Positions 2 through 64,000 are shown, counted from the stretch's first letter. The stretch: DNA of 64,000 nucleotides from Gracilimonas sp. (GCF_040218225.1 NZ_JAVJQO010000008.1:186001-250000); one strand, 5' to 3'. Notes: generated by a model not told the origin, from the sequence alone. A program made the numbers and translations.

Positions 2-916
2 CGTAAATATGGAGAAACTGCAGAAACCATCAACGTTATTTATGTGGTTGATGATAAAGAGCATCTTATTGATGACCTGCGGATCACTCATCTGATCCTC
101 GCAAATCAGGAAGACCATATTGAAGTGTTGATGGATCGTTCTTTTGAAGCTCTTTCAGTATATGATGATCAGGAAGAAGCGGTTAAAATGCTGGCTAAAT
201 ATGACCGTGTTGCCTTACCAGTTGTAGACTCTGATGGTGTACTTGTAGGAATTGTGACAGCTGATGATGTTATTGATGTAGCTGAAGAAGAGACCACCGA
301 GGATATGCAGAAAATGGCCGGTATGGATGCTTTGGATGACTACTATTCCCAATCGTCCATTTTCGACATTGTTAAAAAGCGTCTCTGGTGGTTGATCGTT
401 CTTTTTGTTGGGCAGATTTTAACGGCCATTGCGATGGGAGGCTATGAAGAAGTACTTCAGAAAGTTGTAGCACTGTCATTCTTTGTTCCGCTAATCATTT
501 CAAGTGGCGGTAATTCAGGTTCACAGGCAGCGACCTTGGTGATACGAGCCTTGGCAACCGATGATCTTAAACCCGAAGATTGGAAAAAAGTTTTCAGGCG
601 TGAATTTACTTCAGGTCTTATGCTGGGAGGTTTAATAGGACTATTAGGCTTTTTCACACTAATTGGATGGGATTTGATAGGCGGGGCAGAATTGACAAAG
701 ACTGTATTTCTTACCGCAGGTGTTATAGGGTTGAGCCTTTTTTCAATTGTGTTATTTGGAAATTTTACCGGAGCTATGCTGCCTTTTTTCCTTTCCAAAA
801 TGAATCTTGATCCGGCTGTTTCTTCTGCTCCTTTTGTAGCAACTATTGTGGACGTAAGCGGAATCATTATTTATTTTACCATAGCAATTGTACTTTTAAG
901 CGGAACCTTACTTTAA
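2..916 (+). CDS. mgtE: Magnesium transporter MgtE, C-terminal part (5' end outside window)
   Basis: The frame is open to the left edge, so this is the 3' portion of a longer gene; the first visible GTG at 44 is internal. The visible protein has the end of a paired CBS regulatory region (a CBS repeat about 75 residues long ending near VTADDVIDVAEEE), then a hydrophobic channel domain with about five membrane segments. The signature GNSGSQAATL, typical of the MgtE pore domain, follows the second segment. MgtE is a homodimeric inner-membrane Mg2+ channel gated by Mg2+ binding to the cytoplasmic CBS domains. The stop is 16 bases before thyA, so the genes may be co-transcribed. Family assignment is firm; the N domain cannot be seen. 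Confidence 0.93.
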   Translation, partial: RKYGETAETINVIYVVDDKEHLIDDLRITHLILANQEDHIEVLMDRSFEALSVYDDQEEAVKMLAKYDRVALPVVDSDGVLVGIVTADDVIDVAEEETTEDMQKMAGMDALDDYYSQSSIFDIVKKRLWWLIVLFVGQILTAIAMGGYEEVLQKVVALSFFVPLIISSGGNSGSQAATLVIRALATDDLKPEDWKKVFRREFTSGLMLGGLIGLLGFFTLIGWDLIGGAELTKTVFLTAGVIGLSLFSIVLFGNFTGAMLPFFLSKMNLDPAVSSAPFVATIVDVSGIIIYFTIAIVLLSGTLL

Positions 917-932
917 AGCCCAAAATATTTCG

Positions 933-1781
933 ATGAAAGCATATCATGATCTTGTAAAAAGTGTACTCGAGAATGGAGTCAGAAAAGAAAACCGAACCGG
1001 TACGGATACGATCTCAAATTTTGCTGAATTTTATAAAGTAGATCTCTCCGAAGGCTTCCCTTTATTGACGACTAAAAAAGTCTACTTCAGGTCAGTCATT
1101 TTGGAGATGCTTTGGTATTTAAGGGGAGAAGATCACATCCGTTGGCTTCGCGATGAAAACGATTGCCACATTTGGGATGCCTGGGCTGATGACGATGGAC
1201 ATGTTGGCCCCATTTACCCCGTGCTTTGGAGAAGATTTCCATACTTTGAAAAGGAGTCGGTACGCTTTGAGGGAAATGGCTCAGCACTCGATAAAGAAGT
1301 ATGGGTTCGTAAAGAATTCGATCAGGTACAACGGGCTATTGATATGTTGAAAAACAACCCAAACAGCCGAAGGATAGTTGTGAGCGCCTGGCATCCCGGG
1401 TTATTGGATCAAATGGGACTTCCGCCATGTCACCTCATGTATATTTTCAATGTAGCAGATGGAAAATTGAATTGTCATCTGACTCAGCGCTCCGGAGACG
1501 TTGCTCTTGGAATACCATTTAATCTGGCCTGTTATTCTGCCTTAACTATGGCAATTGCTCAGGAAGTGGGGCTGGAACCGGGCACTTTTGCTCATTCTAT
1601 TGTGGATGCTCATATCTATGTAAATCATGTGGATGGATTGAAAGAACAACTGACCAGAAAACCTAAACCTCTTCCAACACTTAAGATATCAAAGAAGCCG
1701 GTTGATGAACTCACATTCGATGATTTCATTTTGGAGAACTATGATCCGGATCCGGTGATTAAATTTGAGGTCGCAGTATGA
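933..1781 (+). CDS. thyA: Thymidylate synthase
   Basis: The enzyme methylates dUMP to dTMP using 5,10-methylene-THF and releases dihydrofolate. The 282-residue protein is slightly longer than the usual ~264. The catalytic cysteine is C166 in LPPCHLMYIF, and the folate/dUMP-binding stretch LTQRSGDVALGIPFNL follows. The early RTGTDTIS motif carries the phosphate-binding arginine. The stop overlaps the start of folA by four bases (ATGA), the classic coupling of dTMP synthesis to dihydrofolate recycling. The ATG start is chosen because the protein begins directly with the conserved Y-x-x-L-x-x-x-V-L-x-x-G block. Nothing looks damaged. Confidence 0.98.
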   Translation: MKAYHDLVKSVLENGVRKENRTGTDTISNFAEFYKVDLSEGFPLLTTKKVYFRSVILEMLWYLRGEDHIRWLRDENDCHIWDAWADDDGHVGPIYPVLWRRFPYFEKESVRFEGNGSALDKEVWVRKEFDQVQRAIDMLKNNPNSRRIVVSAWHPGLLDQMGLPPCHLMYIFNVADGKLNCHLTQRSGDVALGIPFNLACYSALTMAIAQEVGLEPGTFAHSIVDAHIYVNHVDGLKEQLTRKPKPLPTLKISKKPVDELTFDDFILENYDPDPVIKFEVAV

Positions 1782-2245
1782 TTATTACTCTTGTTGCTGC
1801 TCACGATCCCAATTTGGTAATAGGTAAAGATGGTGGACTTCCATGGCGATACCCGGAAGATTTAAAGCATTTCAAGAGAACTACCGTTGGTGGCACCATA
1901 ATCATGGGTAGGGGAGTATTTGAAGAATTAAACGAGATTCCACTTCCTGAAAGAAAAAATATCGTGCTTTCTACCACTCAAACTTATGAGAATGCAGACA
2001 CCTATACATCTCTGGATGAGGCGTTAAAATCTTCTAATGATAAAGAGGTTTTTATTATTGGAGGAGGGGTTTTGTACAGGCAAGCCATTGATGTTTCTGA
2101 TAAGCTTATCATTACTGAAATCCACGAGGAATACGATGGAGATACATATTTTCCTGAATACAGAGATGATATAGGAACAATATGGAAGGAAGAATCAAGA
2201 GAAGATTACGAAGAGCTTAGCTTCGTCACCTATAAGAGAATTTAA
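1778..2245 (+). CDS. folA: Dihydrofolate reductase
   Basis: This enzyme reduces dihydrofolate to tetrahydrofolate with NADPH, regenerating the cofactor consumed by ThyA. The protein has 155 residues, normal for the family. The substrate site is visible as LPWRYPEDLKHFKRTT, with D28 in the place of the catalytic acid, and the NADPH-binding segments IIMGRGVFEEL and FIIGGGVLYRQA are present. The usual GRKTFES motif reads GRGVFEE here, a modest variation. Translation is coupled to thyA through the ATGA overlap. The gene ends about 110 bases before a response regulator. Confidence 0.97.
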   Translation: MIITLVAAHDPNLVIGKDGGLPWRYPEDLKHFKRTTVGGTIIMGRGVFEELNEIPLPERKNIVLSTTQTYENADTYTSLDEALKSSNDKEVFIIGGGVLYRQAIDVSDKLIITEIHEEYDGDTYFPEYRDDIGTIWKEESREDYEELSFVTYKRI

Positions 2246-2356
2246 AACCGGTTTTACAACTATTAATTAAGAAAGATTAACCTGTATTCTGCAGGCTCTT
2301 TTAATAATTTTGATGTGTTATTCGAGAGAGGCTTAACACCGTCTTAAAATTAAAGA

Positions 2357-2785
2357 ATGAGCCCAGTTTTAGAACAAATACCGGCCAAAAAAGATACGAA
2401 GGCACTGAAAGCTCTGATCGTAGATGATCTGAAGATTAACAGAAGTCTGGCCCGGATTATGCTTGAGCGTAATAATTTCGAGATCATGGAAGCAGAAAAT
2501 GGGGAAGAGGCTCTTCATTTCTTTGGCAGGCAAAAGCCTGATGTTGTTTTAATGGATATCTGTATGCCTGTAATGGGTGGTATTGAAGCAATGAAGCAAA
2601 TCAGGAAGTTAAATCAGAAATTTTCCAGTATTCCAATAATCGCTTTTACTTCAGGTGAGCATAAAGAATCAAAATCTGATTTAATGGAAAAGGGATTTTC
2701 AGAATACATTAAAAAACCATTTAAAGAGAAAGAGCTATTTGATAAGATTTCTCTATTCCTTCCTATTCAAAATATAGCTTCCTAA
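2357..2785 (+). CDS. Single-domain response regulator (CheY-like)
   Basis: The 142-residue protein is a stand-alone receiver domain with about 15 extra N-terminal residues. The acidic pair D23/D24, phosphoacceptor D67 (in VVLMDICMPVMGG), switch residue T98 and K120 (KKPF) are all present, so it should be phosphorylatable. There is no DNA-binding or enzymatic output domain, so it likely acts through protein contacts or as a phosphorelay intermediate. No kinase is adjacent. The nearest phosphotransfer protein in the window is the lone Hpt at 27849-28196, and a link would be speculation. The gene converges on the HD phosphohydrolase gene and overlaps it by four bases. Confidence 0.93.
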   Translation: MSPVLEQIPAKKDTKALKALIVDDLKINRSLARIMLERNNFEIMEAENGEEALHFFGRQKPDVVLMDICMPVMGGIEAMKQIRKLNQKFSSIPIIAFTSGEHKESKSDLMEKGFSEYIKKPFKEKELFDKISLFLPIQNIAS

Positions 2786-4032
2786 AAGCTGATATCTTTC
2801 AAATGCACGCAATAGTGTTTAACTACCGGCTCAGTTAAAGCAATAATATTTTTTGTCTCAGCAGCTTTTGAAAACTCAATAGCTTTTTCATCCTCCAGAA
2901 TCCAAATACTCTCATTTTTATATTTGTAGGCCTCGGAATAGCTGTTTTCAAAGCCAAGGTAGTGACCAACAGCTATTTCATCCTGGGGAAGACGAAGCTT
3001 TTTAAGTGCTTTTTGCGTTTTTTGAGTGATTTCTGATATCTGTGCTTTAGTCGGTTTTTTATCTAAAAAAGTAGTTCTGAATAAATCGCGGTTCAGGAAC
3101 CGATGACAAAGGTTACTTAAGATTTTATCCCCCGACTTTTCCCAAAGCTTAATGCTTAAATATACGTCATGATCATCCATTTCAGCATAACGGTCAATCA
3201 TCTGTTTGGAGATCATTTTTTTTGCTGAAGGCTGTTCGTGCAAGAAATACTCAAGGGCAGGTGAAGCGAAACTTAATTCCTTTCCTTGTTCAATCAATTG
3301 GTGGACTCGCTTGAAGATGCTCCGCAGGAGAAAGTCTGCACTAAGCACTGTTTTATGCTGGTACACTTGCATATACATCAAACGGCGGGCAATAATGTAG
3401 TTCTCAACAGCATAAATCCCTTTCTTTTCAATTACAATATTACCCTTGAAAACCCGCATGGTTTTGAGAATTCGGTTAATGCCTACCGTACCTTCTGAAA
3501 CACCGGTAAAAAAGCTGTCTCGCCTCAGGTAATCTAATCGGTCTAAGTCGAGCTGAGAGGATATCAGCTGATGCAAAAACTTCTTTTTGTGCTGATTGGT
3601 GAAAATATCAATAGCCACATCCAGTGCTCCATTAAACTCTTTGTTGAGCTCTTTCATAATGGCCAGACTCATCATTTCATGATTAAAGTCCGTAATAAGT
3701 GAATGTTCTAAAGTATGAGAAAGAGGGCCGTGCCCAACATCATGAAGAAGAATGGCCATCAGGGTACCTTCATATTCTGGCTGGCTAATGGTTGTATCTT
3801 TTTCACGAAGATTGTTAAGCACTCGCTGTCCCAATTCAAGTGCGCCTAATGCATGGGAGAAGCGGGAATGTTCAGCAGCTGGGAAAACCAGATACCCAAG
3901 TCCTAACTGCCGGATTCTTCGTAATCTCTGCACATAAGGGTGATCTATCAACCTGAGAATAGGACCCTTTGGAACGGTGATAAATCCATGAATCGGATCA
4001 TTGAAAATTTTATACCGGGTGCTTTTATCCAT
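2782..4032 (-). CDS. HD-domain phosphohydrolase (YwfO/dGTPase-like)
   Basis: The 416-residue soluble protein starts with DPIHGFI and the H...HD...D metal-binding set: EHSRFSHALG (H55, H60), LLHDVGHGPLSH (H97, D98) and DRLDYLRRDSF near residue 170. These are typical of the YwfO/SAMHD1-like branch of HD phosphohydrolases, which act on nucleoside triphosphates such as dGTP. The true substrate is not known from sequence. It stands alone on the minus strand, with its stop overlapping that of the convergent response-regulator gene. Length and motifs look intact. Confidence 0.9.
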   Translation of the reverse strand: MDKSTRYKIFNDPIHGFITVPKGPILRLIDHPYVQRLRRIRQLGLGYLVFPAAEHSRFSHALGALELGQRVLNNLREKDTTISQPEYEGTLMAILLHDVGHGPLSHTLEHSLITDFNHEMMSLAIMKELNKEFNGALDVAIDIFTNQHKKKFLHQLISSQLDLDRLDYLRRDSFFTGVSEGTVGINRILKTMRVFKGNIVIEKKGIYAVENYIIARRLMYMQVYQHKTVLSADFLLRSIFKRVHQLIEQGKELSFASPALEYFLHEQPSAKKMISKQMIDRYAEMDDHDVYLSIKLWEKSGDKILSNLCHRFLNRDLFRTTFLDKKPTKAQISEITQKTQKALKKLRLPQDEIAVGHYLGFENSYSEAYKYKNESIWILEDEKAIEFSKAAETKNIIALTEPVVKHYCVHLKDISF

Positions 4033-4090
4033 GCTTTATTTACAAGTTAGATTGAACAGGCTGAAGATATAAAAAAGTTGATAGAGTGAG

Positions 4091-4138
4091 AGTTGATAGG
4101 GTGATGAATTTGATTTAAACGAGATCAACCTATCAACT
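4091..4138. repeat. Perfect 10-bp inverted repeat, probable transcription end
   Basis: AGTTGATAGG (4091-4100) is perfectly complementary to CCTATCAACT (4129-4138), with a 28-base loop. It lies immediately downstream of the minus-strand thioesterase gene that ends at 4140, so it may stop that transcript. The large loop and lack of a T-tract make it an atypical intrinsic terminator. A related direct copy (GTTGATAGAGTGAG) sits just before the left arm. Confidence 0.4.
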
Positions 4139-4139
4139 T

Positions 4140-4574
4140 TCAACTCTGAACCACCATCTCATCTAAATTTTCAATTTCAGGCAATCGGGTAGGCCTCTTT
4201 TTGTTGATATCATACCAAACACCGGTTGACCTTGCTATCCCCATCAAATCTTTTGATTTCTTATCAAAAATCCCCTGAACAGCCTCTATACTCGAGTTAC
4301 CTACTTTGCCTACACCGGTACCTACCAGTAAGGTTGATGGGAAGGTAATTTGTTTAAGGTATTCTATGGTGATTTTCACCAATACAAAGGTTTTTCCTTC
4401 GGTGAATTCACTTTGCATCTGCCCGACTTCTCCTAAAAACTGAATTCGAGCCTCTTCAAGGTAAGTATTGAACAGCGCATTGTTCACGTGGTTAAGAGGG
4501 TCTAAATCCCTAAAACGAACGGGAATTTCCGTCCAATGATAAAAGGTGTCAGGATTGTATTCAGGTCGAAACAT
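4140..4574 (-). CDS. Acyl-CoA thioesterase (4HBT hotdog fold, YbgC-like)
   Basis: The 144-residue protein carries the hotdog signature RFRDLDPLNHVNNALFNTYL near residues 21-40, with the aspartate and H-x-x-N arrangement of 4-hydroxybenzoyl-CoA thioesterase relatives. It is predicted to hydrolyse acyl-CoA or aroyl-CoA thioesters in the cytoplasm; chain preference cannot be told. It is divergent from the M42 peptidase gene at 4698, with 123 bases between the two starts that must carry both promoters. The length is normal for a single hotdog domain. Confidence 0.88.
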   Translation of the reverse strand: MFRPEYNPDTFYHWTEIPVRFRDLDPLNHVNNALFNTYLEEARIQFLGEVGQMQSEFTEGKTFVLVKITIEYLKQITFPSTLLVGTGVGKVGNSSIEAVQGIFDKKSKDLMGIARSTGVWYDINKKRPTRLPEIENLDEMVVQS

Positions 4575-57841: not shown

Positions 57842-57876
57842 AAGGCCTTCTTTAATTAAGAAGGCCTTTTTTAATT
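57842..57876 (+). terminator. Intrinsic terminator after the PspC gene
   Basis: AAGGCCTTCTT (57842-57852) pairs perfectly with AAGAAGGCCTT (57858-57868) around TAATT, followed by TTTTTT. It stops transcription about 80 bases after the PspC stop and isolates the following two-component genes. Confidence 0.92.
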
Positions 57877-57987: not shown

Positions 57988-59127
57988 TTGAAGCCAGAAG
58001 AAAGTTTAATTTTAATTGTAGACGATACGCCCGCAAATCTTCGTCTATTATCGCATGTTTTGTCTAAGGAAGGGTACGAGTACATTGAAGCATCGGGCGG
58101 CAGTGAGGCTCTGGAATTGGCAGAGAAGCATGTACCTGATTTAATTCTCCTTGACATAATGATGCCCGATTTTAGTGGGTTTGAAGTCATTAAAAGGATT
58201 AAATCAAATGAACTGCTTGCAGATATCCCTATCATTTTCCTCAGTTCATTGACGGATACCGATGATAAAGTGCAGGGATTTAAATATGGCGGGGTTGATT
58301 ATATTACCAAACCATTTCAGAAAGAAGAGACATTAGCCCGTATAAAGACTCACCTTCAGATTCGGTCACTTCAAAAACAGCTCAATGAACGCATAAAAAT
58401 TTTACGAGAGCGTGAAATTGAATTAAGCAGACTGAATCAAAAAAAGGATGACCTGGTTCGAACCGTTAGTCATGACATAAAGAACCCGCTCACGGGTATT
58501 ATTGGGCTGGTCAAATTAATGAAGGATAGCGATAAAATAACAGCAGAAGAGCAAACTCATATGCTTTCTGTGATTGAAGAGAGTGGAACAAACTTATTGA
58601 ATCTTGTACGTGAGGTACTCGACAGGGAATCTAAAAAAGTGGAGCCCGAAGAGTTAGAATACTCAAAAATATCGATCGCAGAGTTGCTTGAAAGAGTAAT
58701 TTCAATGAATAAAGCGAAATCTGTAGTTAAGAACATAAAACTGGATTACAAAGTTAATCCAGCCGGACTTAAAGTAGATGCAGATCAGAATAAAATTGAA
58801 ATTGCTATGAACAATCTTGTTTCAAATGCTTTGAAGTTTACTCCTTCAGGTGGAGAAGTGATTGTTTACGCGTCTGAAAATGGCGAGAATTTAGAAATGA
58901 AGGTGAAGGATACCGGCATTGGAATTCCCAAAAAAATGCAAGAAGATTTATTTACAAGCACCAATAAATCATCCCGAAAGGGAACAAGTGGAGAGGTTGG
59001 AACCGGACTTGGTTTGGATATTGTTCAGCTCTATGTTGAGCTTCACAAAGGAAAAGTTTGGGTTGAGTCAGAATTAGATAAAGGCACCACATTCTTCATT
59101 CAGTTACCTATAAATAAGCAAGCTTAA
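57988..59127 (+). CDS. Response-regulator-fused histidine kinase (REC-HisKA-HATPase)
   Basis: The 379-residue cytosolic protein has an N-terminal receiver domain (D12/D13, phospho-acceptor D56 in LILLDIMMPDFSG, K108), then a HisKA domain with H162 (RTVSHDIKNPLTGI) and a HATPase domain (NALKFTPSGG, DTGIGIPKK). Receiver-first hybrid kinases are often controlled by phosphorylation from another kinase. It precedes the REC-GAF protein by 11 bases and the Pel-like genes, so it probably governs exopolysaccharide output. TTG at 57988 is the start because the receiver domain begins at once and there is no ATG; no SD is visible. Confidence 0.9.
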   Translation: MKPEESLILIVDDTPANLRLLSHVLSKEGYEYIEASGGSEALELAEKHVPDLILLDIMMPDFSGFEVIKRIKSNELLADIPIIFLSSLTDTDDKVQGFKYGGVDYITKPFQKEETLARIKTHLQIRSLQKQLNERIKILREREIELSRLNQKKDDLVRTVSHDIKNPLTGIIGLVKLMKDSDKITAEEQTHMLSVIEESGTNLLNLVREVLDRESKKVEPEELEYSKISIAELLERVISMNKAKSVVKNIKLDYKVNPAGLKVDADQNKIEIAMNNLVSNALKFTPSGGEVIVYASENGENLEMKVKDTGIGIPKKMQEDLFTSTNKSSRKGTSGEVGTGLGLDIVQLYVELHKGKVWVESELDKGTTFFIQLPINKQA

Positions 59128-59138
59128 ATAAATTACCT

Positions 59139-60074
59139 ATGAACTATAAGGTTTTAGTTATTGATGATGATGAACCCATTCACTTCATGATCAAAAACCT
59201 CCTCAAGAACGAATTTACCGTATTAAATGCCCATAATGTGCAAGAGGCAATTGACATTCTATCAGAAACTGATATCAATCTGATTCTGTCCGATATTCAT
59301 ATGCCAGGTATTTCCGGGCTGGAGTTTTTGGAATCTATAAGACTGGATGAAAAAAAGAAAAAGATTCCGGTTCTGATTATGACAAACCTGCCAACTGTAG
59401 AGAAAGAACAGAAGGCTTATGATCTTGGAGCTGCTGATTTTATTAAGAAAGAACTCCTGAATAATGACAGAGAGCGAGTTCTTGAAATCATACGGATGAA
59501 AATAGTAACGGATATCAGGGTTACTGGACTGGATGAGGATCAGTCTAAAAAGAAAGATAAGCTCGTCATGAAGTTGATGGAAACGGCAATATCAGGTTCA
59601 TTCCCCGATACCGTAGAGACTTTAGGAAATGGATTAAATGAGATTATATCCAATAAATTTACGGGTTTTTGGATGGTCCAGGATAATCAGACAAAGTTGT
59701 TGTATCTGGAGACTCTGAATTCAAAACAACCTGACAATCCCGCGGATATTTATAACCAGCAAAGCTTTGAGCATCTCCAGGAAACAAAAGAAGCCTACAT
59801 GACCAATCATGTATTTAATGAGGAACTGGGCTTTTTTATCGATTTTTCGAAGAATGAGGAGTTAGCAGCTGAAATAGCTGTTCCATTATTTGCGATAAGT
59901 GAACGGGAATTATTAATGAATAACATGAACGTTCCGTCTGATGCCCCAATGTTTGGAATATTACTCATGAAACGTTCTGTTTTATTCTCATCTACTGAGT
60001 TTGAGCTTGTCTCCAGATTAATTAAACAATCAGGCTCTATTCTTTATCGGCTTTACAAAAAAGCTAACTCCTGA
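59139..60074 (+). CDS. Response regulator with GAF-like output domain
   Basis: The 311-residue protein has a receiver domain (D10/D11, D52 in LILSDIHMPGISG, T82 and the lysine pair at 103-104) and a ~170-residue C-terminal region without DNA-binding or GGDEF motifs. That region (AEIAVPLFAISE, then FGILLMKRSVLFSSTEFELV) has the strand-helix pattern of a GAF sensor domain. The usual K-P after the receiver reads K-K-E. Neighbouring genes suggest a regulator of the Pel-like synthase, perhaps taking a PelD-like place; this is inference. Confidence 0.8.
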   Translation: MNYKVLVIDDDEPIHFMIKNLLKNEFTVLNAHNVQEAIDILSETDINLILSDIHMPGISGLEFLESIRLDEKKKKIPVLIMTNLPTVEKEQKAYDLGAADFIKKELLNNDRERVLEIIRMKIVTDIRVTGLDEDQSKKKDKLVMKLMETAISGSFPDTVETLGNGLNEIISNKFTGFWMVQDNQTKLLYLETLNSKQPDNPADIYNQQSFEHLQETKEAYMTNHVFNEELGFFIDFSKNEELAAEIAVPLFAISERELLMNNMNVPSDAPMFGILLMKRSVLFSSTEFELVSRLIKQSGSILYRLYKKANS

Positions 60075-60083
60075 TTTAAGTAT

Positions 60084-61268
60084 ATGAATATTCTGCTCAT
60101 TATAGAAGGCACCTACCCATGGTACAGAGGTGGAGTTAGTGAATGGGTTTATCAGTATTTAAACCATTTACAAGAGTTTGATTTTACCATTCTGCAGATT
60201 GCAACGGATGAATTTCAGGGGCTCAATCCATCCGATGCACTTTATCCTTTGACTGATAATATTGTTGAATTCATTCGGATTTCTCCTCCTGAAATGAATT
60301 CCGGTTCTTTAAACTATCTTGATAAATGGTTTGAGGACTCAGTTTCAAGTCAGGAGCTCACGAAATCAAAATTTGATCTCGTACATGTAACAAATACTGG
60401 TTTTGCCGGATGGCTGGGTACAAAATTATCAACCATAAATAAAATTCCACTGCTGCTGACGGAACATGCTATTTATTGGAAAGAAATTGAGATGGGAGCA
60501 GTAGCCCTGGAATGTGGCTACAAAATACCCAACGATCATGATGGTAAAAATGACGTGGTTTCATCTTTTAAAAATATCGCTTCATTGACGTATCAATATG
60601 CAGAGCAAATAGTTACAGTTTCTGAATCTAATATTCCCTATCAAAAAGAATTAGGCGCAAATGATGTAAAATACATCCCAAACGGAATTCCCAAGTCATG
60701 GCTTAAATCTGAAAAAAGCAGGGGTAAGGAACCTGTAATAGGGTGGGTAGGTCGGTGTGCTGAAATGAAGAACCCACTTGCTTTTTTTGAGTTAGTAGAG
60801 GAATTCAGAAGTAAAAGTATAAGCCCTCAATTTCGAATGTTACTAAGCGATGCAAACGAGAAAGAGCTTGAAAACAAGGTTAAAGCCGTATCATTAAATT
60901 ATCCTGAAGTAGAGTGCATTTGGAACCAATCGGCACAGACTTATTTTAGAGATTTTGATTTTCTGTCGATAACCAGTCATAATGAATCACAGCCATTGGT
61001 AATGTTAGAGGCATTAGCCCATAAAGCACTGCCAGTTGGTTTTCGTGTAGGTGATTTGACTGAAAAGTATGGGCTTGTAATCGCTCCGGGTTTGCCGGTT
61101 AGCAAATTAGCTGACAATATCATCAGGCTATGGAATCATCAGGCGGAATTTGAACATTATGTTGAGAACCGTTTTGCTCGTGTTCAGGAATATCACACCT
61201 GGGAGTATATTTTTTCTCACTATAAGACTTTGATTAAGGAAATGATGGAGGAAGTAATAGAAGAGTGA
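60084..61268 (+). CDS. PelF-like GT4 glycosyltransferase, short form
   Basis: The 394-residue enzyme begins with the PelF-type block IIEGTYPWYRGGVSEWVYQY and has a GT-B fold. The E-x7-E motif (NESQPLVMLEALA) that binds the nucleotide-sugar is intact. PelF is the cytosolic polymerase of Pel polysaccharide, using UDP-sugars. This short copy lacks the large insertion of the next gene. The GTG start of the second glycosyltransferase overlaps its stop by four bases. It may be a paralogue making a different or partial reaction. Confidence 0.85.
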   Translation: MNILLIIEGTYPWYRGGVSEWVYQYLNHLQEFDFTILQIATDEFQGLNPSDALYPLTDNIVEFIRISPPEMNSGSLNYLDKWFEDSVSSQELTKSKFDLVHVTNTGFAGWLGTKLSTINKIPLLLTEHAIYWKEIEMGAVALECGYKIPNDHDGKNDVVSSFKNIASLTYQYAEQIVTVSESNIPYQKELGANDVKYIPNGIPKSWLKSEKSRGKEPVIGWVGRCAEMKNPLAFFELVEEFRSKSISPQFRMLLSDANEKELENKVKAVSLNYPEVECIWNQSAQTYFRDFDFLSITSHNESQPLVMLEALAHKALPVGFRVGDLTEKYGLVIAPGLPVSKLADNIIRLWNHQAEFEHYVENRFARVQEYHTWEYIFSHYKTLIKEMMEEVIEE

Positions 61269-62848
61269 GTAAAGACACTCCATATGTGCTGTTTGAAACG
61301 GAGGGTTCTTACCCTTACAGCGGCGGAGGTGTGTCTACCTGGTCTCATATTTTGTGCACCGAATTGAAAGAGAAGGTGGATTTTGAATTACTGGCTATTA
61401 CAGGTAATCCCTATGTAGAAAGCCGTTACAGGCTGCCTGAGAATATCAGAAAGATTACTCATATTCCGCTATGGGGAGTCGATGAGCCCTCAGATTATTA
61501 TGATGATGAGAACCCTTTTTCTCATCAAATTGAAAAGAAAGCCAGAGTATCTAAGGATGTCATCAACCAATATTTTAAGCCTATTTTTGAGGACTTTATA
61601 CAATGCCTCCTCAATCCATATACTGATGTGTCTCGTGTAAGTGATATTCTTTACGGCCTTTGGAAGTACTTCCAATATTATGATTATAAACAAACATTGA
61701 GACAGCCTTTGCTGTGGACTGAATTCAAACAGTCGCTGATCAATTATTTTGAGGAGTCTAACCTGTCTTACAATGAGCAGCCGCGTGTATTTGATATTAC
61801 GTTTGGAATGCGCTGGCTTTATCATTTTATGATGCCTTTGGCTGCTCCTGTTACAGATAAAGTGGATGTTACCCATGCCACGCTCGCAGGTTTTCCGGCC
61901 TTGGTTTCCATTGCAGGAAAATATGAGTATGGCATACCAAGTATGGTTACAGATCATGGTGTTTACATGCGGGAGCGGTTAATTAACGTGGGACAGGCAG
62001 ATATGCCTTTCTTCTCAAAAAAGCTGCTTGTGGATATGTCAACGTTGGTTAGCAGAGCTGTTTATTTTACTGCTGACCAGATTTCGCCCGTAACAACAGC
62101 AAACAAGGAGTGGGAGATGCGGTTTGAAGCCGAAGAGAGTAATATCATTCCCATCTATAACGGGGTGAATACAGATCTTTTTAAACCAACTCCAAAACCT
62201 AAGCAAACCCAGGATGTACCCACAGTAATTGCCGTAGCGCAGGTTTTTCCTTTGAAAGATATTGAAACCATGATTCGGGCTGCTGATTTGGTTCGGAAAG
62301 AGATTCCAGCGGTTCAGTTTAAGGTATATGGAAGCCTGGAGGTTGATAAAGATTACGTTGAAAAATGCAGGGACTTAATTAAAGAGCTGAAATTGGAAGA
62401 CACATTTCATTTTGGAGGCTTTCATGATCAGCCAAGCATGATTTTTAATGAGGGTGATATATCTATCTTAACCTCAATCTCGGAAGGATTCCCCTATACA
62501 GTTATTGAATCTATGAGTTGTGCACGCCCAGTTGTGGCTACAGATGTAGGTGGTATCAGAGATGCACTTGAGGGTTGTGGAATTTTATGTAAGCCCAGGG
62601 ACCCTCAGGACATTGCAAAAGGAGTGGTGAAATTATTGAATGACGATGATCTCCGGCTTGAATTGGGTAGTAAAGCCAGAGAAAGGGTATTGCTTACCTT
62701 TACAACAGAAAAGTCAGTAGATGCTTACTACGATTCATACATGAAGTTGGCATCTCAACACAGAACTCCGTTGAAGAAAAACGTTCAGATAGCTTCTGTT
62801 CTTAAGCTGCTCAGTCATCTTGAAGAAGCGGAGTTTGAGCATGCCTGA
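61265..62848 (+). CDS. PelF-like GT4 glycosyltransferase, long form
   Basis: The 527-residue protein starts ETEGSYPYSGGGVSTWSH, as in PelF, with an N-terminal DUF3492-like half carrying a ~90-residue insertion (around residues 75-170) and a C-terminal GT4 domain with E-x7-E (SEGFPYTVIESMS) and DVGGIRDALEG. It starts at GTG 61265, overlapping the upstream stop by four bases, so translation is coupled. It is the likelier genuine PelF of the pair. The PelG-like gene overlaps its 3' end by eight bases. Confidence 0.9.
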   Translation: MSKDTPYVLFETEGSYPYSGGGVSTWSHILCTELKEKVDFELLAITGNPYVESRYRLPENIRKITHIPLWGVDEPSDYYDDENPFSHQIEKKARVSKDVINQYFKPIFEDFIQCLLNPYTDVSRVSDILYGLWKYFQYYDYKQTLRQPLLWTEFKQSLINYFEESNLSYNEQPRVFDITFGMRWLYHFMMPLAAPVTDKVDVTHATLAGFPALVSIAGKYEYGIPSMVTDHGVYMRERLINVGQADMPFFSKKLLVDMSTLVSRAVYFTADQISPVTTANKEWEMRFEAEESNIIPIYNGVNTDLFKPTPKPKQTQDVPTVIAVAQVFPLKDIETMIRAADLVRKEIPAVQFKVYGSLEVDKDYVEKCRDLIKELKLEDTFHFGGFHDQPSMIFNEGDISILTSISEGFPYTVIESMSCARPVVATDVGGIRDALEGCGILCKPRDPQDIAKGVVKLLNDDDLRLELGSKARERVLLTFTTEKSVDAYYDSYMKLASQHRTPLKKNVQIASVLKLLSHLEEAEFEHA

Positions 62849-64000
62849 ACTAGACCAGATCCAAGTTTCAGAGCTTACCAAGCCTGAAGCGGTTGACCAA
62901 ATAACGGAACGTGTATACCAACTAATTGGAAACCCAATCAGTAAATGGGCCGTTGCAGCTACCATCGAGTCTTTAGGAGTTCGAAATGTTGATGCCCAGA
63001 CAGATTATGGATTCCAATCCGTATTTGATCTGGGTGATGAAGTTTACAGAAGGATAAAAAGCAGGGAACAGGAATCAGCCCTTAAGGATGAGGACGATAA
63101 AGATGAGTTTAAATTTGGTGGTATTGGGCGAACCCTTAAACTATTTGCCAGGCATTACAGTGCTGGAATGGTTTTTTCTATGCCAATGCTATCCCAAATC
63201 ATAGCTATCATAGTTTTTGAATATGCACTATGGGCCTGGTTTGATTTCAATGAAGCTCAGGCAACGGTAGTGGCTTTAGGTACCATGCTCTCTTTTATAT
63301 TGACCGGTGGTTTCATTCAAACATTGGGAAGGTTAGTATCAAAATATAAAGGAGAGGGTAATTACTACTTAGCCGCCAAAGCAACCATATCTGTCCTGAA
63401 AATTGGCATTCCGTTTGTATTAATATCTGCAGTTGTCATTTTTGCCATTAATCTGATCTTACCTTTTTATCCGCAACAGCTTATCATTTTGGCAATGATT
63501 TATATGGTGCTGATTTCATTATTATTACTGTCAGCATCGGTTCTGTTTGCCACAGAACAACGGCTTATGATTTTGGTCGGTATTGTAGGGGGTACCATTT
63601 TTGTAATTTTTGGAATGGATTTCGCAGGCCTGGGAATTTATTTATCCCAATGGCTCGGCATTCTAACGTCTACGCTAATAATAGCCGCATACGCATTTAT
63701 TTATTACAGGCTTAAAATACAGTCGCTTCGTCAGGAACTCTTTAAGCAATCTTTGCCAGAAGGGGAAGTAAGCTATTATAATACGTATCGATATTTTGTG
63801 TATGGATTTTGCTATTTCACCTTTCTATTTATGGATCGATTGATGGCATGGTCGGCCGGACCACCACCTCCAGAATATATCGTTTGGTTTAATACTCCAT
63901 ACGAACTTGGGATGGACTGGGCTCTTATCAGTCTGGTTATTACGATTGCGATGCTTGAATTTAGTGTTCAATCATTTTCTCTGAACCTTATTCCAGCTCA
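62841..64000 (+). CDS. PelG-like exopolysaccharide membrane transporter, N-terminally extended (3' end outside window)
   Basis: The frame from ATG 62841 is open through the window end, so at least 386 residues are encoded. An ~95-residue hydrophilic region precedes GGIGRTLKLFARHYSAG, which matches the usual very N-terminus (A-G-I-G-F-x-L-R) of PelG, a MATE/Wzx-like flippase. About seven membrane spans follow in the visible part, with MDRLMAW in the expected F-x-D-R-x-x-x-W place. The extension is helical and acidic at its end (DEDDDKDEF). It would move Pel-like polymer across the inner membrane with PelF. Confidence 0.85.
   Translation, partial: MPELDQIQVSELTKPEAVDQITERVYQLIGNPISKWAVAATIESLGVRNVDAQTDYGFQSVFDLGDEVYRRIKSREQESALKDEDDKDEFKFGGIGRTLKLFARHYSAGMVFSMPMLSQIIAIIVFEYALWAWFDFNEAQATVVALGTMLSFILTGGFIQTLGRLVSKYKGEGNYYLAAKATISVLKIGIPFVLISAVVIFAINLILPFYPQQLIILAMIYMVLISLLLLSASVLFATEQRLMILVGIVGGTIFVIFGMDFAGLGIYLSQWLGILTSTLIIAAYAFIYYRLKIQSLRQELFKQSLPEGEVSYYNTYRYFVYGFCYFTFLFMDRLMAWSAGPPPPEYIVWFNTPYELGMDWALISLVITIAMLEFSVQSFSLNLIPA

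Follow-up and report, generated by a model that had tools for sequence, protein, structure and literature searches.

A Pel-like exopolysaccharide operon without PelD in Gracilimonas, with a degenerate HD-GYP protein and a REC-kinase/REC-GAF pair as candidate regulators

Pel is an exopolysaccharide whose synthesis is driven by cyclic di-GMP (c-di-GMP), and in classic Pel systems the receptor for this signal is PelD, a protein with a GAF domain and a degenerate GGDEF domain. The stretch of DNA analyzed here, from the salt-water bacterium Gracilimonas sp. (64,000 nucleotides; GCF_040218225.1, NZ_JAVJQO010000008.1:186001-250000; hereafter the window), ends inside a Pel-like locus that begins with two signaling genes, and the question it raises is what might control such a synthase if PelD is missing. 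An initial annotation of the window proposed that, if no PelD exists, phosphorylation may take over from c-di-GMP. Our tentative answer, to which we assign somewhat less than an even chance, is that the locus is a Pel variant that lacks PelD and has, in its slot, a degenerate HD-GYP protein switched by a REC-kinase/REC-GAF pair. The anatomy of the operon is well supported, and from it we infer the mechanism and the polymer.

Nine genes lie in a single run from position 57988 to an extrapolated 72937, with intergenic gaps of -35 to +11 bp. The first five open reading frames (ORFs) carry the domains and form the tight run that the initial annotation described (gaps of 11, 9, -4, and -29 bp), and the run extends approximately 9 kb beyond the window, with four further genes after the pelG-like gene. 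A strong terminator-like hairpin with a T run sets it apart from an upstream PspC gene. Coordinates past 64000 are extrapolated, with each window position equal to the L002 coordinate plus 55999. The features, in order, are as follows.

57842..57868 (L002 1843-1869), + strand: terminator-like hairpin of 11 pairs plus T run, ending the upstream PspC-gene unit
57988..59127, + strand: soluble histidine kinase REC-HisKA-HATPase, 379 amino acids, from domain matches
59139..60074, + strand: REC-GAF response regulator, 311 amino acids, REC from a domain match and GAF from a model
60084..61268, + strand: PelF1, GT4/DUF3492 glycosyltransferase with EX7E motif
61265..62848, + strand: PelF2, GT4/DUF3492, above the NCBIfam PelF cut-off, with EX7E motif
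62820..64000, gene continuing to 64475, + strand: PelG-like membrane transporter, 551 amino acids, with an N-terminal extension of about 100 amino acids
64485-66110, outside the window: GAF-GAF-HD protein, a putatively degenerate HD-GYP
66107-66970, outside the window: PelA-hydrolase-like protein
66967-69024 (L002:10968-13025), outside the window: multi-pass membrane protein, 685 amino acids
68990-72937, outside the window: 1315-amino-acid fusion of a PelADA-type deacetylase (DUF2194), TPRs, and a probable barrel

The biosynthetic enzymes are those expected of a Pel system. PelF2 scores 159.9 bits against the PelF model NF038011 (cut-off 100) and PelF1 falls slightly below the cut-off at 99.3 bits, and canonical PelF is matched by both in profile comparison. 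The PelG-like protein of the window has no Pfam PelG match of its own, a pairwise comparison with canonical PelG gave no match, and neither did a PDB profile search with its alignment. We label it PelG-like because its relatives match the PelG family PF16933 (three sequences among the 18 in alignment A1, the best at 2e-9; the L084 relative, at 29.9 bits, exceeds the cut-off of 29). Hydrolase and deacetylase are encoded by separate genes. For the former, the match is to the hydrolase part of canonical PelA (a fragment), with an E-value of 7.8e-24; for the latter, in the N-terminal half of the fusion, it is to 9zau, the PelADA structure of Bacillus cereus, with an E-value of 8e-32. In the C-terminal half of the fusion, the matches are to TPR proteins, including cellulose synthase operon protein C (1.7e-5) and, with a weak score, PelB (0.067), and the sequence there points to a probable barrel at the end. 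Thus, of the components that the initial annotation suggested seeking past 64000, a PelA-type hydrolase and a PelADA-type deacetylase are present, PelB has only this weak match, and PelD and a recognizable PelE are not among the genes found. Canonical PelE, which diverges fast, is unmatched by any operon profile, as is canonical PelC in a search that covered the operon and not the other lipoproteins of the genome. The product is probably a Pel-like, galactosamine-rich polysaccharide.

The 685-amino-acid membrane protein has been assigned to no family, and a PDB profile search with it gave no match. It is conserved, with counterparts in most related PelD-free Pel-like loci, and it may be an unrecognized core component of them.

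No PelD was found downstream in the extended sequence or elsewhere in the Gracilimonas genome: PelD_GGDEF (PF16963) gave no match in this assembly (98.6% complete, 11 contigs), and the same search detects PelD in a Pseudoalteromonas plasmid that carries a canonical pel operon. The standard PelD just downstream that, for the initial annotation, would have marked a normal Pel locus is thus absent from the extended sequence. Likewise, PelD is absent over cut-off from 238 genomes of the class and from 27 other carriers of the locus, and no ORF in the operon has the transmembrane-plus-GAF make-up of PelD. A GGDEF domain over cut-off is also lacking in the Gracilimonas genome and in every locus-bearing genome of its family (f1), some of these and the other surveyed assemblies being incomplete; one genome, G011, has a single match below cut-off. 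According to a scan of named genomes that yielded 80 loci, this family is Balneolaceae, and at genus level the genome belongs with Gracilimonas.

The signaling genes are conserved parts of this operon. A PelG-like match occurs in 26 of the 244 genomes of the class, 24 of them in Balneolaceae, and the complete nine-gene order from kinase to fusion is kept in 17 Balneolaceae genomes, which bears out the suggestion that the kinase and the REC-GAF gene are more than unrelated neighbors. REC-GAF and HD genes are both present in 20 of the 24 Balneolaceae loci. The whole order is also present in a cultivable relative, Gracilimonas mengyeensis DSM 21985 (L065). The kinase is less constant, being nonadjacent in three further loci of genus g3 (Fodinibius group) that keep REC-GAF and HD. 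In one locus (L051) the HD gene stands with neither kinase nor REC-GAF adjacent, beside a degenerate tandem copy, and three loci without HD also show no REC-GAF, one of them being cut upstream by a contig end. All 21 HD_5 matches in the family lie in locus-bearing genomes and at the locus.

Two further peculiarities were seen. L051, from an Aliifodinibius metagenome-assembled genome (MAG), holds at oriented positions 756-4571 a degenerate partial tandem copy of the operon with pieces of pelF, pelG, the hydrolase gene, and the membrane protein gene (also seen in L074). In G024, of the same genus as Gracilimonas (L037 / L008), the pelG-like gene is interrupted by a single in-frame TAG and the ORF of the hydrolase lies in two pieces, and this locus may be decaying or misassembled.

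The protein that we favor for the place of PelD is encoded directly after pelG, beyond the window, and is the single HD_5 match of the genome. In a model of its orthologue from Gracilimonas mengyeensis, two GAF-like parts are followed by an HD-GYP part; the first GAF-like part is read from secondary structure only, and the second is matched by fold. Among solved structures, PmGH, DvhD, and PA4781 come nearest. Against PmGH, a GAF-HD-GYP protein, the model aligns with Z 19.5 over 308 residues at a root-mean-square deviation (rmsd) of 10.7, and its HD-GYP part alone aligns to 9rbz with Z 19 over 183 residues at rmsd 3.6. In PmGH, Lys225Ala or Asp183Ala abolishes activity and Asp305Ala weakens it without killing the enzyme (PMC4159591). 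Among 27 HD proteins from Pel-like loci, the Lys225 position is never Lys (22 of 27 in other HD-GYP domains), the Asp183 position is Asp in one, the Asp305 position is always Glu (Asp in 24 of 27 others), and the position of Glu185 is mostly non-acidic. The 27 HD-GYP domains used for comparison, which come from the class and from these same genomes, were chosen by an HHE-GxGxP pattern, and the set so favors canonical members. With regard to the catalytic residues, the protein of this operon reads HDIGY, and it has G-S-P for the GYP motif, which is G-T-P in most Balneolaceae relatives. The metal ligands H189, H221, D222, H250, and H276 are kept in all 27, and H277 in 24, with Gln in the other three. 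In a tree, one branch (support 96/92, 95% of bootstrap trees) separates these proteins from the rest; because they are one clade, with 14 from one family, the counts are not 27 independent events. Their sequences suggest a catalytically degenerate relative of HD-GYP enzymes, that is, a pseudo-phosphodiesterase.

Related HD genes occur well outside Balneolaceae. Loci of Calditrichota, KSB1, Ignavibacteria, and Kryptonia and of one Actinomycetota MAG combine the HD gene with a GAF-SpoIIE phosphatase and a stand-alone receiver, and further HD genes are found in loci of Chloroflexota, Bdellovibrionales, and Campylobacterota. Sampled HD carriers outside Balneolaceae have GGDEF domains in all but one MAG. 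Many loci from other phyla come from MAGs, and their labels may be wrong; a MAG labeled Bifidobacterium breve (L099) has a Flavobacterium-type Pel-like locus, probably through a binning or labeling error. In L081, L084, L090, L091, and L121, a GAF-SpoIIE (PP2C) phosphatase and a lone receiver accompany a GAF-GAF-HD protein, which in L081 ends in a STAS domain, an arrangement suggestive of a partner-switching module connected to the making of the exopolysaccharide. The Campylobacterota loci L120, L123, L137, and L139 encode HD proteins with an intact GYP motif and without the catalytic Lys. Those of L120 and L137 have one predicted N-terminal transmembrane segment, and in L120 a gene for an OEP-family outer-membrane protein lies upstream of pelF.

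The two leading genes have the parts needed for phosphotransfer: a phosphoacceptor His, an ATPase domain, and a receiver Asp. No transmembrane segment is predicted for the kinase, whose orthologues keep the phosphoacceptor His (SHDIKNP) and the receiver Asp (LLDIMMP), and Asp52 of the REC-GAF protein is invariant. The C-terminal domain of the 59139 protein, described initially as a GAF-like end, takes a GAF-like form in an AlphaFold2 model of high confidence (mean predicted local distance difference test score 89.3). Over its whole length, within which the GAF domain was searched, the model has a Foldseek match to 6ob8 (E-value 3.5e-14), a green-light dual-sensor kinase also crystallized with BeF3, for which REC and GAF are read from the entry titles. 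In VIA-align, the matches were filled by receiver domains, so that the GAF part was barely probed. Neither a domain search nor the AlphaFold2 model reveals a DNA-binding domain in the REC-GAF protein.

Given these components, it seems reasonable to propose that the products of the nine genes make, trim, deacetylate, and export a Pel-like polysaccharide. The soluble kinase would phosphorylate the REC-GAF protein, which, because it has no DNA-binding output, might work through contact with other proteins, the GAF-GAF-HD protein being the likeliest of them. The latter would take the place of PelD and gate the PelF/PelG synthase. A broader version, in which a dead GAF-HD-GYP family replaces PelD in several phyla, as a c-di-GMP receptor where c-di-GMP exists, and has been rewired in Balneolaceae, with no recognizable c-di-GMP synthesis, to REC-kinase/REC-GAF phosphorylation input, is possible, though we lean against it.

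Other explanations share much of this evidence. Perhaps the HD protein still works as a phosphohydrolase, on some other substrate such as a different cyclic dinucleotide, and lowers a local signal controlling the synthase while the REC pair tunes its activity. The conserved His/Asp metal ligands (24 to 27 of 27) and a structural likeness to the cGAMP phosphodiesterase 5z7c (Z 17.2, 176 residues, rmsd 3.5) are in keeping with this idea, which is nevertheless unlikely given the loss of Lys225 in all members and of Asp183 in all but one, either of which kills PmGH, the Gln at His277 in three, and a genome without a GGDEF domain over cut-off. The initial annotation instead had phosphorylation by the REC pair acting on the synthase directly in place of PelD, which would leave the HD protein secondary. 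We consider this rather unlikely: the order of REC-kinase, REC-GAF, two pelF genes, and pelG in 17 genomes and the missing DNA-binding domain fit it, but the HD gene persists in the Fodinibius group and in L051 when the kinase or both REC genes are not adjacent, and it is HD, not REC-GAF, that recurs in Pel-like loci of other phyla. The HD gene, which lay beyond the window, is the better candidate for a PelD stand-in. The original proposal is partly supported: PelD was not found, the REC pair is a conserved part of the operon, and the genome shows no GGDEF domain over cut-off. However, phosphorylation is not a general substitute for PelD, because loci without REC genes, PelD, or GGDEF are common in Flavobacteriia and Cytophagales.

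Those loci, roughly 40 of them, consist of a minimal core of pelF, pelG, hydrolase, membrane protein, and fusion genes without HD or REC genes, and none of nine sampled genomes with this core has a GGDEF domain over cut-off. They fit a synthase that is constitutive once expressed, with control at transcription and signaling genes that ride along, an explanation made improbable by the retention of these genes in order across genera of the family and by their lack of a DNA-binding domain. A normal Pel locus, whose PelD would lie at another site in the genome and whose signaling neighbors would be unrelated, fits the clearly Pel-like PelF and PelA-type parts but is very improbable; it was rejected on the negative genome search with its working positive control, and the missing GGDEF domains and the conserved gene order also speak against it.

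The proposal of a degenerate HD-GYP protein switched by the REC pair draws on the operon-like spacing with a terminator in front, the Pel-like enzymes, the PelD and GGDEF searches, the joint occurrence of REC-GAF and HD, the residues of the HD family, and, by analogy, the precedent of DvhD. Several points weigh against it. Flavobacteriia hold the core without any of these regulators, so that a switch may not be needed for synthesis. In the Fodinibius group the kinase gene does not lie beside the locus, and the kept His/Asp ligands mean that the HD protein may bind metal and hydrolyze another substrate. No sequence similarity of the HD or REC-GAF protein to PelD was found, and hhalign comparisons of these two and the membrane protein with single PelD or PelE sequences gave nothing, a single sequence being a weak template. 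Finally, unseen partners could direct the regulators to transcription or to other targets.

The locus is a variant of Pel, and we file it as such because its enzymes are Pel-like and PelD is missing. With Pseudomonas-type pelABCDEFG it shares PelF, a distant PelG-like protein, a PelA hydrolase homologue, and a TPR export part. It differs in lacking PelD and recognizable PelE and PelC, in having separate hydrolase and deacetylase genes with the deacetylase fused to the TPR part, and in containing two PelF proteins, the extra 685-amino-acid membrane protein, and REC-kinase, REC-GAF, and HD genes. It resembles the Gram-positive pelDEADAFG operon of Bacillus cereus (PMC7112168, PMC13254593) in its PelADA-type deacetylase, PelF, and PelG-like protein, but has no PelD or recognized PelE and adds a fused TPR part and a probable barrel for the outer membrane. 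Streptococcus intermedius makes Pel without c-di-GMP control and its PelD keeps the transmembrane and GAF parts (PMC12345266), whereas Gracilimonas has no PelD at all. In Desulfovibrio vulgaris, the inactive HD-GYP protein DvhD is a c-di-GMP receptor for adhesion (PMC13090378). Like the putatively inactive Gracilimonas protein, DvhD is a dead HD-GYP in a biofilm-control operon, in a role held elsewhere by the degenerate GGDEF-EAL receptor LapD. The two differ in that the target of DvhD is a protease/adhesin system, its HD and HH metal ligands are gone, and it is bound by c-di-GMP, whereas the Gracilimonas protein keeps its metal ligands in a genome without recognizable c-di-GMP synthesis. PmGH (4mcw) has the GAF-HD-GYP architecture, from which the Gracilimonas protein departs by the loss of Lys225 and Asp183, Glu for Asp305, G-S-P for GYP, and an extra GAF. 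In the open-licence literature searched, we found no described Pel locus that is PelD-free or contains an HD-GYP protein.

A widespread PelD-free form in organisms without recognizable GGDEF domains makes the real role of PelD for the synthase testable. Furthermore, the HD family of Pel-like loci supplies a specific candidate for a receptor of a second kind, in line with the recent DvhD finding for adhesins.

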